Below, piece after piece: positions 29,934 through 34,804 of a DNA stretch of 34,951 bases. The stretch's first letter is position 1, and every line of letters starts with the position of its first letter. The stretch covers positions 1 to 34,951 of the forward strand of contig JAGNIV010000030.1 of NCBI GenBank assembly GCA_018001015.1, read 5' to 3'. The notes beneath the pieces were generated by a model that saw only the letters and a list, made by a program, of their open reading frames with translations, had not been told where the DNA came from and made no database searches. Origin of the DNA: Phenylobacterium sp. (GTDB taxonomy: Bacteria > Pseudomonadota > Alphaproteobacteria > Caulobacterales > Caulobacteraceae). Both the position numbers and the translations under genes were made by a program.

Positions 29934-30872
29934 CTAGATCGAAGACGCCGGCCCCGCCCACATTCCGGCGGCCAGTGCGATCACCAGCAGAAGGCCCGCC
30001 AGGCTGTTGGACTTGAAGAGGGCGAGCGCACCCATGCCGTCCTTGACGTCCAGCCGCGCCGCCTGCCGCGAAAGGTGGGCGCCGAACATGGCGGCCGGGG
30101 GCAGGGAGAGGGGCCCGAGGCCGCCGACCCAGGCCGCGGCCAGCGCCAGGACGAAGGCCGCTACATAGAAGCCGAGCACAGCCTTCGGCGCGGCGTCGCC
30201 CAGCCGCAGGGCCGAGGATTTCACGCCGGCCAGGGCGTCGTCCTCCAGGTCCTGGACCGCGTAGATGGTGTCGTATCCCAGGGTCCAGAAGACGCCCGAC
30301 GCGTAGAGCAGGACGGCGGGCCAGTCGACACGTCCGGTGACGGCGGCGTAGCCCAGCAGGGCGCCCCAGTTGAAGGTCAGGCCGAGCCAGGCCTGAGGCC
30401 ACCAGGTGATCCGCTTCATGAAGGGATAGGCGGCGACGAGGCCAAGCGAGGCGACGCCGAGGCCGATGGCCACGGGGCCCATGGTCAGCAGGATGAGCAG
30501 CGAGATCAGGGCGCAGGTGACCACAAAGGCCCAGGCCTGCCTGACGCTGATCTGGCCCGACGGGATCGGCCGGTCAGCGGTGCGGGCCACCTGGGCGTCG
30601 AAGTCGCGGTCGACGATATCATTGTAGGCGCAGCCCGCCGCCCGCATCAGGGCCGCGCCGGCGAAGAACTCGGCCATCAGCAGGGCGCTCGGCCACTGGT
30701 GTTGCATGGCGCCGGCGAGCGCGATCCCCTGCCAGCCGGGCAGCATCAGCAGCCAGATGCCGGTGGGCCGGTCGAAGCGGCCCAGCTTCAGCCAGGGGCG
30801 CAGGGCCGCGGGTGCATGGCGGTCGACCCAGTTGGTGGGGGCGGCGTCGGGGAGGGGTGTGGAAGCGGTCAT
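29934..30872 (-). CDS. ubiA: 4-hydroxybenzoate polyprenyltransferase UbiA
   Basis: A 312-residue inner-membrane prenyltransferase joining a polyprenyl chain to 4-hydroxybenzoate in ubiquinone synthesis. It has about nine helices and the two aspartate-rich motifs: 'NDIVDRDFD' (residues about 84-92, NDxxDxxxD) and 'YDTIYAVQDLEDD' (about 200-212). The N-terminal 'LGRFDRPTGIWLLMLPGWQG' is typical of UbiA. Length fits the family. The TldE and UbiD genes lie to its left on the same strand but are not contiguous with it. The start is followed upstream by the leader region of the divergent ABC exporters. Confidence 0.95.
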   Translation of the reverse strand: MTASTPLPDAAPTNWVDRHAPAALRPWLKLGRFDRPTGIWLLMLPGWQGIALAGAMQHQWPSALLMAEFFAGAALMRAAGCAYNDIVDRDFDAQVARTADRPIPSGQISVRQAWAFVVTCALISLLILLTMGPVAIGLGVASLGLVAAYPFMKRITWWPQAWLGLTFNWGALLGYAAVTGRVDWPAVLLYASGVFWTLGYDTIYAVQDLEDDALAGVKSSALRLGDAAPKAVLGFYVAAFVLALAAAWVGGLGPLSLPPAAMFGAHLSRQAARLDVKDGMGALALFKSNSLAGLLLVIALAAGMWAGPASSI

Positions 30873-30937
30873 CTTGACCCCTGCATACCAGAGCGTGGCT
30901 TTCGCGCCGCAGTCAGAATTTGGCGTAACGCGGTCGC

Positions 30938-30966
30938 TTGACGGGGGAATCCCACCCGCCTAACTT
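30938..30966 (+). promoter_or_regulatory. sigma-70-type promoter of the ABC leader transcript
   Basis: TTGACG (-35, 5 of 6 consensus bases, and a match to the Caulobacter housekeeping -35) is followed by a 17-base spacer and TAACTT (-10, weaker). Transcription would start near 30973, giving a 5' leader of about 260 bases before the first ABC gene and about 38 bases before the short leader ORF. It lies 66 bases from the divergent ubiA start. Confidence 0.5.
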
Positions 30967-31010
30967 CCCGGCTCCACAGACGACGCGACCGGAAAGGAGG
31001 GTCAGCAAAG

Positions 31011-31067
31011 ATGAATGTCATCGCACCGCCCACCCTCCGTAAACGTGCGCCCGGGGTCTGCTGCTGA
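31011..31067 (+). CDS. leader peptide ending Cys-Cys (18 codons)
   Basis: A short ORF encoding MNVIAPPTLRKRAPGVCC then TGA. It is preceded by AGGAGG (30995-31000), the strongest ribosome binding site of this locus, 10 bases before the ATG. It sits 45 bases after a good promoter and 167 bases before the ABC exporter genes, with no other gene between. The last two sense codons are both TGC and lie in the loop of a small GGTC/GACC hairpin (31055-31069). These properties fit a regulatory leader peptide, with cysteine supply as a possible signal. I know of no named family, and translation is inferred from position. Confidence 0.45.
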   Translation: MNVIAPPTLRKRAPGVCC

Positions 31068-31069
31068 CC
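31055..31069 (+). promoter_or_regulatory. hairpin over the Cys-Cys codons of the leader
   Basis: GGTC-tgctgct-GACC: a 4-base stem whose 7-base loop holds the two TGC codons and the first base of the stop codon. A ribosome paused at the cysteines would melt it. It is short, so it may be chance; longer-range pairing of this region with 31071-31090 (GGG with CTCCC) is also possible. Confidence 0.35.
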
Positions 31070-31123
31070 TGAGATCTCCCTGGCCCGCGCTCCTGCCGCG
31101 CCCGCCTCAAGGACATCTCCCCC

Positions 31124-31237
31124 TTGTCTTCCGACTCCCGCCGGACCCTTCGGCGCTTCCCCATTTTCCATGACGTCGCCGATGCGCGGGCTCTCGCCGC
31201 ATCCCCCGCCGTCATCGCACATCGACGGCTCACATGA
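31124..31237 (+). other. possible 37-codon ORF overlapping the ABC start (ATGA)
   Basis: An open frame from a TTG at 31124 (AAGGA about 10 bases upstream) ends in a TGA that overlaps the ATG of the first ABC gene. The peptide shows no family. A ribosome terminating here would be placed on the ABC start, which lacks its own visible ribosome binding site, so translational coupling is conceivable. Evidence is weak: a rare start codon and no homology. The rest of the 360-base gap 30873-31233 holds the promoter, leader ORF and hairpins listed separately. Confidence 0.25.
31208..31229 (+). promoter_or_regulatory. hairpin at the expected ribosome binding site of ABC gene 1
   Basis: GCCGTC-atcgcacatc-GACGGC, a perfect 6-base stem ending 4 bases before the ATG at 31234. 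No Shine-Dalgarno sequence is visible there, so the hairpin occupies the region where initiation would be controlled. It could hold back translation of the exporter unless upstream translation opens it. Confidence 0.4.
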
Positions 31238-33020
31238 CGGACGCTTACGACGATGAGGACGGCAACCGTCCCCGCACCCTGACCAACGGCCAGGTCATCC
31301 GCTTCATGGCCGGTCACTGGATGGCCGAGCCGAAACGGTTCGCCCTGATTGCGGCCCTGATGCTGGCCTCGACGGCCTGCGACCTGTCGATCCCGTGGGC
31401 GACACGGGCCCTGATCGACGCTGTCGCTACCCCCACCTCGCCGACCGACACCGCCTGGATCGCCTGGGCCAGTCTGTCGGCCCTGTACCTGGCGTTCTAC
31501 TGCCTGCGCAGCTTCATGTTCCGCATGTCCAATGGCTACTATTCGCGGATCATGGCGCGGATGGTGACCCAGGCGTTTGCTCGGGTTCAGGCCTTCTCCG
31601 CCGACTGGCACGCCTCGAATTTCGCCGGCGCCACGGTGCGGCGGGTGAGCCGGGCCATGTGGGGCTATGACAGCGCCTCGGACGCTCTGCTGTGGATGCT
31701 GACGCCCACCTTGATCGTGCTGTCGGGCCTGGCCATCTCCATCGGCCTGAAGTGGCCGGCGGCGGGCGTGTTCGTCGCCGTGCTTGTGGTCGCCTTCGCC
31801 ATATTCAACGTCCTGGTCTCCACCCACTTCATCCGGCCGGCCAACCTCGCCTCGACGGCGCTGGACTCCCAGCTCGGCGCCAACCTGGCCGACGCCATCG
31901 GCGGCAATCCGGTGGTGAAGGGCTTCGGCGCGGAGGCGCGCGAGGAGAAGCGGTTCTCCGATCACGTGGCCATCTGGCGCACGGCGCAGAACAAGACCTG
32001 GGACCGGTTCAACACCGTGGGCTGGGGCCAGAACTTCTTCCTGGTGATCCTGCAGGCGGGCCTGACGGGACAACTGGTCCATGCCTGGAGCCGGGGTGAG
32101 GCGACGCCGGGCGACGTGGCCTTCGGCATCACCTCCTTCATCGTCATGGCGGGCTACATGCGCAACTTCAGTGAGATCACCCGCATGCTGCAGAAGGGCC
32201 TGGACGACATGGTGGACGTGGCTGCGTACATGCGCACGCCGCCGCAACTGGCCGACCGGCCGGACGCGGCGCCGTTCCGGGGCGAGCTGGGGGAGGTGGT
32301 CTTCGACCGCGTGACCTTCGGGTACGAGAACGCCGCCCGTCCGCTCTATCGGGACTTCACCCTGGTGGTGGCGCCCGGCGAACGCGTCGCCCTGGTGGGG
32401 CCGACGGGGCGGGCAAGTCGACCTTCGTCAAGCTGCTGCAGAGGCTCTACGACGTGCAGGGCGGCCGCATCCTGATCGACGGCCAGGACATCGCCGATGT
32501 CAGCCAGGGAAGCCTGCGGCGCGCCATCGCCGTGGTGCCCCAGGACCCGGCCCTGTTCCACCGCACCATCGCCGAGAACATCAGCTATGCGCGGCCCGAC
32601 GCCACGCAGGACGAGGTGGTCCTGGCCGCCAAGCGGGCCCGGGCGCACGATTTCATCGCCGGTCTTCCGAAGGGCTACGACACCCTGGTGGGCGAGCGTG
32701 GGGTGAAGCTGTCGGGCGGGGAGCGGCAGCGGGTCGCCATCGCCCGCGCCTTCCTGGCCGATGCGCCGATCCTGGTGCTGGACGAGGCCACCTCGTCACT
32801 CGACGTCGAGACCGAGCGCCAGGTGCAGGCGGCCATGGAGGAGCTGATGTTGGGCCGCACCACGGTGGTGATCGCGCACCGCCTGTCGACCATCCGGGGC
32901 GCCGACCGCATCCTGGTGTTCGAGGGCGGCCAGCTGGTGGAGGAGGGCCGCCACGCGGACCTGGTGGCGCGCGGCGGGGCCTATGCCCGGCTGCACGCCG
33001 TGACGGAGGCGGGCGCGTGA
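31234..33020 (+). pseudogene. ABC exporter half-transporter, frameshifted in Walker A
   Basis: A fused permease-ATPase gene paralogous to its downstream neighbour. The permease domain (residues 1-330) is intact, with 'FSADWHASNFAGATVRRVSR'. At residue 389 the Walker A reads GPTG then shifts: the sequence GGGG-CGGG has one base fewer than the neighbour's GGG-TCGGG. In the present frame the protein ends after 413 residues with an unrelated 25-residue tail (stop near 32473). The rest of the ATPase ('LSGGERQR', 'ILVLDEATSSLD', 'IAHRLST') continues in another frame to 33020. Restoring one base gives 595 residues, exactly the neighbour's length. It is either a real inactivating mutation or a sequencing error in a G run. 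The start ATG matches the neighbour's N-terminus but lacks a ribosome binding site. Confidence 0.85.
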
Positions 33021-34804
33021 CCGAGCACTATGAAGAGATCGACGAGTCCGCCAACCGGGTCCTGAGCAACCGCCAGGTCCTGAGGTTCGTCATGGGCTAC
33101 TGGCTACGCCGGCCCTGGCTGCTGGCCGGCACGCTGGTGGCGACGCTGGCGGGCATCGGGTTCGATCTGGCCATGCCCTGGGCGTCGGGCCAGCTGGTGG
33201 ACGCGGTGACCGCGGGACCCTCGTCGCCGGACGCGGCCTGGGTCGCCTGGGCCCTGTTCGTCGGCGTCTATCTGACGGGCTCCCTGATGCGCAATATCGC
33301 CCCGAGGTTCTGGATTCCCCTGGCGGCCGGCAACATGCGGGAGATCACCGAGGAGGGGTTCGGCAAGGTGCAGTCCTTCTCCGCCGACTGGCACGGCGAC
33401 AACTTCTCGGGCGCCACGGTGCGCAAGCTGAGCCGCGCCATGTGGGGCTATGACGAGGTCTCCGACGCGGTGGTCATGTGGCTGGGCCCGGCTCTGGCGG
33501 TGCTGCTGGGGCTGTCGGTGATGATGATCCTGCGCTGGCCGATGGTGGGCCTGTTCTCGCTGGCCACCGTCATCTTCTACATCGCCTCCAACATCTTCCT
33601 GACCAGCACCTTTGGCCGGCCCCTGAACCTCAAGTCGGTGGGGCTGGACAGCCGGATCGGCGGGGCGATCTCGGACTCCATCGCGTCGAACGCCACGGTG
33701 CGCGGCTTTGGCGCCGAGGAGCGGGAGGCGACGCGGATCGCGGGCGTCACCCAGCTGTGGTCGAAAGCCGTCCAGCGCACCTGGACCCGGTTCACCGACA
33801 TCTGGCTGGTGCAGAACCTGCTGCTGGTGGTGCTGCAGGCGGGGCTGACCGGCCTGCTGCTGCGGCTGTGGGCGCGGGGCGAGGCGACGCCGGGCGACGT
33901 GGCCTTCGGGGTCACCTCCTTCATGCTGATGAGCGGCTACCTGCGCAACATCGGCGACAATATCCGCATGCTGCAGAAGGGGCTGGACGACGTCGAGGAC
34001 GTCGCCCGCTACCTGACGCTCGAGCCTCAGGTGGCCGATGCGCCGGGCGCGCCGGACTTCGCCGGGGACCTGGGGGAGGTGGTCTTCGACCACGCCACCT
34101 TCGGCTACAAGTCGGCCGGGACTCCGCTCTATCGCGACTTCTCCCTGCGGATCGCGCCGGGGGAACGGATCGCGCTCGTCGGGCCAACAGGGTCGGGCAA
34201 GTCGACCTTCGTCAAGCTGGTCCAGCGGCTCTATGACCTGGACGCCGGCCGCATCCTGATCGACGGCCAGGATGTGGCCAAGGTGACCCAAGGCAGTCTG
34301 CGGCGCGCCATCGCGGTGGTGCCGCAGGACCCGGCCCTGTTCCACCGGACCATCGGCGAGAACATCAGCTACGCCCGCCCCGACGCCACCGGCGACGAGA
34401 TCGAACTCGCCGCCCGCCGAGCCCGGGCCCACGACTTCATCACCCGCCTGCCCAAGGGCTATGAGACCCTGGTGGGGGAGCGGGGCGTGAAGCTGTCGGG
34501 GGGTGAGAGGCAACGGGTGGCCATCGCGCGCGCCTTCCTGGCCGACGCGCCGATCCTGGTGCTGGACGAGGCGACATCCTCCCTGGACGTGGAGACCGAG
34601 CGGGAGGTGCAGGCGGCGATGGAGGAGCTGATGGTGGGGCGCACCACCATCGTCATCGCCCACCGCCTGTCCACCATCCGCGGCGCTGACCGCATCCTGG
34701 TCTTCGACAACGGCCAGGTGGTGGAGGAGGGCCGCCACGCCGAGCTGGTAAGCCGGGGCGGGGCCTATGCGCGGCTGCACGCGGTGACGCTGGGGGTGGG
34801 GTAG
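33017..34804 (+). CDS. ABC exporter half-transporter (permease-ATPase)
   Basis: A 595-residue half-transporter: six-helix permease (about 25-330, 'FSADWHGDNFSGATVRKLSR') then ATPase with Walker A 'GPTGSGKST' at 389-397, Q-loop 'VPQDPALFHRT', signature 'LSGGERQR' (493-500), Walker B 'ILVLDEATSSLD' (513-524) and switch His 'IAHRLST'. The GTG start overlaps the previous gene's stop by 4 bases (GTGA), so the pair is coupled and probably forms a heterodimeric exporter. The two are clearly duplicates, most alike in the ATPase half. The substrate is unknown; the Cys-Cys leader peptide upstream hints at a thiol-related one, by analogy with CydDC, but this is speculation. Confidence 0.92.
   Translation: MTEHYEEIDESANRVLSNRQVLRFVMGYWLRRPWLLAGTLVATLAGIGFDLAMPWASGQLVDAVTAGPSSPDAAWVAWALFVGVYLTGSLMRNIAPRFWIPLAAGNMREITEEGFGKVQSFSADWHGDNFSGATVRKLSRAMWGYDEVSDAVVMWLGPALAVLLGLSVMMILRWPMVGLFSLATVIFYIASNIFLTSTFGRPLNLKSVGLDSRIGGAISDSIASNATVRGFGAEEREATRIAGVTQLWSKAVQRTWTRFTDIWLVQNLLLVVLQAGLTGLLLRLWARGEATPGDVAFGVTSFMLMSGYLRNIGDNIRMLQKGLDDVEDVARYLTLEPQVADAPGAPDFAGDLGEVVFDHATFGYKSAGTPLYRDFSLRIAPGERIALVGPTGSGKSTFVKLVQRLYDLDAGRILIDGQDVAKVTQGSLRRAIAVVPQDPALFHRTIGENISYARPDATGDEIELAARRARAHDFITRLPKGYETLVGERGVKLSGGERQRVAIARAFLADAPILVLDEATSSLDVETEREVQAAMEELMVGRTTIVIAHRLSTIRGADRILVFDNGQVVEEGRHAELVSRGGAYARLHAVTLGVG

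Follow-up and report, generated by a model that had tools for sequence, protein, structure and literature searches.

The window analysed here is a 34,951-nucleotide stretch of Phenylobacterium sp. DNA (contig JAGNIV010000030.1), and the region of interest is a short leader that precedes two ABC half-transporter genes on its plus strand. The 5' neighbour of the leader is a divergent ubiA gene (29934-30872, minus strand) that faces the leader promoter. The latter is a -35 box TTGACG (30938-30943), a 17 nt spacer and a -10 box TAACTT (30961-30966), assigned from the sequence and from a layout that recurs in related leaders; a stock sigma-70 scan found 0 promoters and missed this site. It is followed by a Shine-Dalgarno (SD) sequence AAGGAGG (SD1, 30995-31001) and by the upstream ORF uORF1, whose 18 codons (MNVIAPPTLRKRAPGVCC, then a stop) run from the ATG at 31011 to the TGA at 31065-31067 (31011-31067) and which has relatives at both ABC and rsgA loci (below). 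The promoter, AGGAGG site and 18-codon ORF are thus present as the earlier note claimed, and they recur in Phenylobacterium. Among ORFs of 10-30 codons with an ATG, an AGGAGG and a Cys-Cys end, uORF1 is the sole case in the window, and only 1 of 200 Markov-resampled windows contained one. In a collected set of 53 leaders (uORF limit 12-22 codons, which leaves out L115 with 26 codons, L052 and L241; L017 and L031 enter no count), a TTGA[CT]-N16-19-TA promoter layout lies within 70 nt 5' of the SD in 38, namely 18 of 18 ABC leaders and 20 of 35 rsgA leaders, versus 0.4% of resampled controls, which, like the controls used below for class-wide uORFs, SD1 pairing, SD2 and stop-codon hairpins and the alternative helix, ignore sequence kinship.

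The roughly 165 bases 3' of uORF1 had been described as lacking a long ORF, but they are not empty, since a second uORF and an SD hairpin lie inside them. An SD sequence AAGGA (SD2, 31109-31113) precedes uORF2, which has 37 codons from a TTG (31124-31237) and whose TGA stop, ending at 31237, overlaps the start of the first half-transporter gene, ABC1. Such a uORF2, with an SD-near start and ending at the ABC start, is found at 12 of 20 leader-bearing loci, and at 17 of the 20 the ABC start lies in an ATGA overlap; the overlap alone is no evidence of coupling, because ABC proteins that start Met-Thr give ATGA anyway, and it is from the placement of uORF2 that we infer a probable coupling of ABC1 to it. 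ABC1 (31234-33020) encodes an ABC_membrane domain, as does ABC2 (33017-34804), which is of the ABCB type and close to ABCB exporters. Both half-transporter genes of the earlier note are there, but ABC1 is split in this assembly into ORFs 31234-32475 and 32454-33020. The frame break lies at 32440-32480, near the Walker A motif, and could be either an assembly error or a pseudogene mutation; in the four closest relatives ABC1 is an open frame of 610-615 amino acids.

Three hairpins can be drawn in the window leader. In H1 (30996-31038), GGAGGGT (30996-31002) pairs with ACCCTCC (31032-31038), so that SD1 is hidden by codons 8-10 of uORF1. SD1 pairing exceeds that of synonymous recodings in 48 of 51 leaders, and it is only this pairing that is higher; the overall folding energy from the SD to the end of the uORF is weaker than after synonymous recoding (mean z +0.5 for ABC and +1.5 for rsgA leaders). 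H2 (31054-31070) is a 5 bp GGGTC/GACCT stem over the Cys and stop codons. The hairpin that the earlier note drew over the cysteine codons does exist, but it is not unusual for this sequence and is equalled by 27% of its shuffles. Across the leaders a stop-codon hairpin of at least 5 bp is present in 33 of 51 (mean 4.5 versus 3.5 bp), and by the same measure none is found in the seven-member L006/L007 group. H3 (31071-31119) pairs GAGATCTCC (31071-31079) with GGACATCTC (31111-31119) and covers the SD of uORF2 (z -2.98). Hairpins of the H3 type over SD2 have a mean z of -2.1 in 12 ABC leaders and -1.15 in 29 rsgA leaders; this test left out L033, L039, L050, L106, L112, L091, L113, L163 and L174, which have no second start by our rule, and three duplicates. 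The second SD under H3 starts rsgA itself in the rsgA leaders, and in the window it starts the uORF2 that reaches the ABC1 start. An alternative helix, in which the uORF from codon 9 to its stop pairs with the H3 region, would make H3 switchable; its mean z is -0.75 over 51 leaders, and it is supported in the rsgA leaders but unsupported among the ABC leaders (z +0.36 for the window). In alignment A1, 94.7% of the cells at paired positions can pair, versus 50-70% when the pairing is slid, and pair counts on A1 gave no two-sided compensatory change and did not exceed a shuffle control.

The last codons of uORF1 are TGC TGC, and cysteine had accordingly been put forward in the earlier note as the sensed amino acid, with a thiol exporter under its control; scarce cysteinyl-tRNA would stall ribosomes at these codons and so turn the exporter on. 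The TGC TGC TGA end with a hairpin over it favours such a model, as does a single terminal Cys codon in each of the 5 window-clade members, in L052 and in L241. These seven are, however, the only ones among 29 ABC leaders with a terminal Cys (22 have none), Cys-Cys occurs in the window alone, and none of 35 rsgA leaders has either; the last residues of uORF1 vary across the ABC leaders (CC, SSC, SFC, SGC, RPC, RF, SL, SRT, GPS and PHR). Among orthologous loci it is thus the ORF and its SD that are conserved and not the paired cysteines. The constancy of the last Cys in the window clade could have a reason at the RNA level, since in 4 of its 5 members GGTCAGCA, made up of the final Cys codon and the stop, is able to pair with the SD side, TGCTGACC or TGTTGACC. 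Nor does either protein rank as a thiol exporter by profile: against the CydC and CydD profiles ABC1 scores 39.6 of the 329 bits needed and 40 of the 435 bits needed, and ABC2 scores 209.9 of 329 and 241.6 of 435, all below the cut-offs. A simple scan of 30500-31600 gave 0 terminator-like sites. An amino-acid leader-peptide attenuator would be marked by sensed codons that stay repeated across orthologues, by downstream genes for the metabolism or export of the amino acid and by a terminator in the leader; none of these was found here, homologous leaders stand before rsgA, and we consider a cysteine-responsive attenuator very improbable.

An ABC1 orthologue was found in 34 of 101 genomes of the genus (E ≤ 1e-110), and 30 of these loci were read. 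A leader ORF that has a promoter and an SD to itself, in the attenuator-like layout that had been claimed for the window, is present at 16 of the 30 (L003, L033-L036, L039, L042, L050, L052, L053, L006 and L054-L058), and no leader was seen at the other 14 (L004, L005, L037, L038, L040, L041, L043-L049 and L051). At several of the latter a co-directional coding frame lies immediately upstream. A scripted scan of 34 named loci flagged 10, of which 9 were counted; L131 was left out because its candidate lies in a different place and has no promoter. In most ABC leaders the SD and the start are kept and the uORF has 14-20 codons; it is longer in L115 (26), L052 (30) and L241 (37). In L052 (1004-1500) the leader lies ~340 nt upstream of ABC1, its 30-codon uORF1 has a Cys end, and a longer open frame replaces uORF2. 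At 17 leader-bearing loci the genes 3' of the leader were checked: seven have a tandem transporter pair (L116-L118, L124 and L299-L301), seven have a single ABC2-like half-transporter gene directly 3' of the leader and no further transporter gene in the DNA that was read (L137, L138, L145, L294, L295, L297 and L298), and three end at a contig edge (L125, L136 and L296). Since it precedes single genes as well as pairs, the leader is not bound to the pair, and it may predate the insertion of ABC1.

A DNA match to the window leader in another genus lies 5' of rsgA, and the same element is present there. A DNA search of 299 genomes with the window leader gave many weak matches, mostly to its second half; those that were read resemble GC-rich DNA matched by chance, and L060-L063 alone were of consequence. 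The exact pattern CGGAAAGGAGGGN{4,10}ATG occurs at 27 places in 299 Caulobacteraceae genomes, 9 of them before rsgA, 8 before ABC genes and 10 at ordinary genes or by chance, and a reversed-pattern control gave 9 places. In the genus, the SD-uORF layout is found at 29 of the 30 best rsgA loci (the exception is L178). A leader is present at L166; at six other Caulobacteraceae rsgA loci (L184-L186 and L188-L190) none was seen. The genome from which the window comes has two rsgA genes (G000:C71 and G000:C14), one with a leader (uORF MTVLIQPLLRRAADQVS, then a stop) and one without.

The covariance model R2, built from rsgA leaders only, matches the window leader at 30983-31126 (40.9 bits, E = 1.1e-7) together with 17 of the 25 other ABC loci that carry a leader (E ≤ 0.0013), single-gene and pair loci both; of the 26 ABC loci supplied to it, 8 go undetected (L050, L053, L106, L112, L136-L138 and L145), where the leader is recognized from layout alone. 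When R2 was run on 30 ABC loci at which no leader had been seen before, it gave one match, L052 (E = 6e-5), where reading confirmed a leader, and the next best value was 0.08. A joint model, R1, built from ABC and rsgA leaders, was searched in 199 Caulobacteraceae genomes and gave 46 places in 39 of them at E ≤ 0.05. At E ≤ 0.001 there are 32 matches, 18 of them outside the training sequences: 21 lie before rsgA, 10 before ABC half-transporter genes, and the remaining one precedes a regulator with an rsgA-like N-terminus fused to it. At this last locus (L235; G070:C313, with the element near 1000) a winged-helix-like regulator ORF comes after the leader and RsgA-like N-terminus, as though it had captured the control region along with the initial codons; the fusion was judged by eye. 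A uORF of 14-20 codons is present in 31 of the 32 matches, which were picked without regard to any ORF. The 14 weaker matches divide into seven that look like chance and seven that look real, the latter being L232, the ABC loci in G026, G008 and G081 (L241), and the rsgA loci in G122, G201 and G113, of which these last three were called real solely from adjoining rsgA matches in the genus. At L232 (G018:C15, 1501-1671, minus strand) the leader looks good, its uORF having 30 codons and its H3 being long, and neither rsgA nor an ABC gene follows. The Rfam covariance models gave no match at E ≤ 5 in 30800-31400. Judged by these matches, the window leader is of common ancestry with the rsgA leaders, in a family common to a ribosome-assembly GTPase gene and an exporter.

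RsgA is a GTPase that finishes 30S subunits. Across the Alphaproteobacteria, PF03193 identifies it in 47 of the 387 genomes searched. A uORF of 9-24 codons with an SD before it lies no more than 300 nt from rsgA, on its 5' side, at 15 of 48 loci, versus 2.8 expected (5.8% of resampled controls), although the 15 are not independent, because several come from the same genera. By eye, uORFs outside the scripted rule were seen at L246, L266 and L269, and reading of L268 gave no leader, which leaves the count of 15 unchanged. Since most of the 48 loci have no uORF, the trait is patchy. A uORF start resembling MxxI[VA] (MTAIV, MIVSV, MNAIV) occurs at 13 of the 48, versus 0.23 expected (0.5%); the motif was set after some leaders had been seen, and L247, L265, L282, L288 and L291 fitted it unseen. 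We note that, of the 21 rsgA leaders with an Ile codon early in the uORF, 15 have ATT as the first, that the 7 ABC cases all have ATC, and that ATT is rare in the genes of the window (2 of 60 Ile codons).

The frame, start and length of the uORF are mostly kept while its residues drift (pN/pS 0.93 over nine groups, 0.54 to 2.58), which fits a ribosome as the sensor better than an active peptide. Poor constraint on the peptide, and the location of both SD1 and SD2 within hairpins, would also suit a structured RNA that needs no translation, such as a thermosensor or a riboswitch-like element, with the uORF a by-product of SD pairing. We think this quite improbable, given the near-constant presence of the 14-20-codon uORF in the R1 matches, the retention of its strong SD and start, and the occurrence of uORFs before rsgA in distant families too, where the sequence is different. 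A third possibility is a sensor of drug arrest, in which a ribosome-targeting antibiotic would stall ribosomes early in uORF1 and expose the exporter SD, as in bmrBCD or the erm and cml leaders. ABCB exporter genes do lie 3' of the leader, N-terminal uORF starts such as MTAIV, MNVIA and MTPIA recur, and bmrBCD is a precedent as described (PMC4191407). But the same leader precedes rsgA, which is not a resistance gene, and the uORF residues are not under purifying selection; we regard this explanation as unlikely.

The reading that we prefer, with a probability of about 0.6, is that a translated uORF lies here in a cis-acting mRNA leader, which is homologous to the rsgA leader, is common to rsgA and an ABCB-type exporter, and senses ribosome performance. 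The direction of the switch and its signal we infer as follows. Ribosomes that open H1 and translate uORF1 would determine how H3 folds; when translation is impaired, by a shortage of competent 30S subunits or by ribosome-binding drugs, SD2 would be freed, and RsgA would then be made, or uORF2 translated with the exporter coupled to it. What would matter is the act of translating uORF1 and not the peptide. We propose a translation-controlled leader because RsgA finishes 30S subunits and bmrCD is induced through a leader ORF by ribosome drugs; translation under stress may be what joins RsgA to an ABCB exporter. More tentatively, and with rather less than an even chance of being right, the leader may be an undescribed alphaproteobacterial RNA gauge of 30S or initiation capacity, in which translation of a hairpin-held uORF with a strong SD keeps RsgA off by feedback, and the same gauge before an ABC exporter turns export on when translation is poisoned. 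To our knowledge little is known of how late 30S-assembly factors are controlled, and with a recurring leader before rsgA a feedback loop on ribosome assembly becomes directly testable. Its presence before an exporter as well suggests a translation sensor that is able to move between genes. The tempting cysteine-sensing reading is thereby corrected to a leader family that links a ribosome-assembly GTPase and an exporter.

Several known systems resemble the window leader in part. The mycobacterial polycysteine leaders are short ORFs that end in Cys codons, as uORF1 does; unlike them, the Cys pair here is not conserved and the downstream genes are outside sulfur metabolism. In the antibiotic translational attenuators (erm and cml leaders) the SD of the target cistron lies in a hairpin 3' of a short uORF, and the window has the same arrangement for its next cistron, but here there is no resistance methylase and no established arrest motif, and the leader is common to rsgA. 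Leader coding sequences are described in Caulobacter crescentus by Schrader et al., with trpS and ilv as examples, and the main text of that report makes no mention of a GTPase or an ABC transporter (PMC4117421). Within the literature that was searched, neither a leader peptide for rsgA nor a leader of this kind in Phenylobacterium turned up. In Sinorhizobium meliloti the leader peptide peTrpL is described as arising from a transcription attenuator and acting on a separate operon, with a link to multidrug export (PMC7298713). It resembles uORF1 in description, as a leader peptide of an alphaproteobacterium with a link to export, and it differs in its attenuator origin and in its separate operon target. 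In Bacillus subtilis the ABC exporter pair bmrCD is described as being induced when drugs that act on the ribosome slow translation of a leader ORF (PMC4191407). This bmrB leader ORF is 53 residues long and carries a terminator within the coding region, as described (PMC4191407), unlike uORF1 with its 18 codons, SD hairpin and rsgA-leader homology and with no terminator found. Of the features of the bmrBCD type, a terminator in the leader ORF is thus absent from the window and the ABC exporter pair is present (single genes at some related loci), and a translated leader ORF with alternative stem-loops, as described for bmrBCD (PMC4191407) and as predicted here, stands before that pair.
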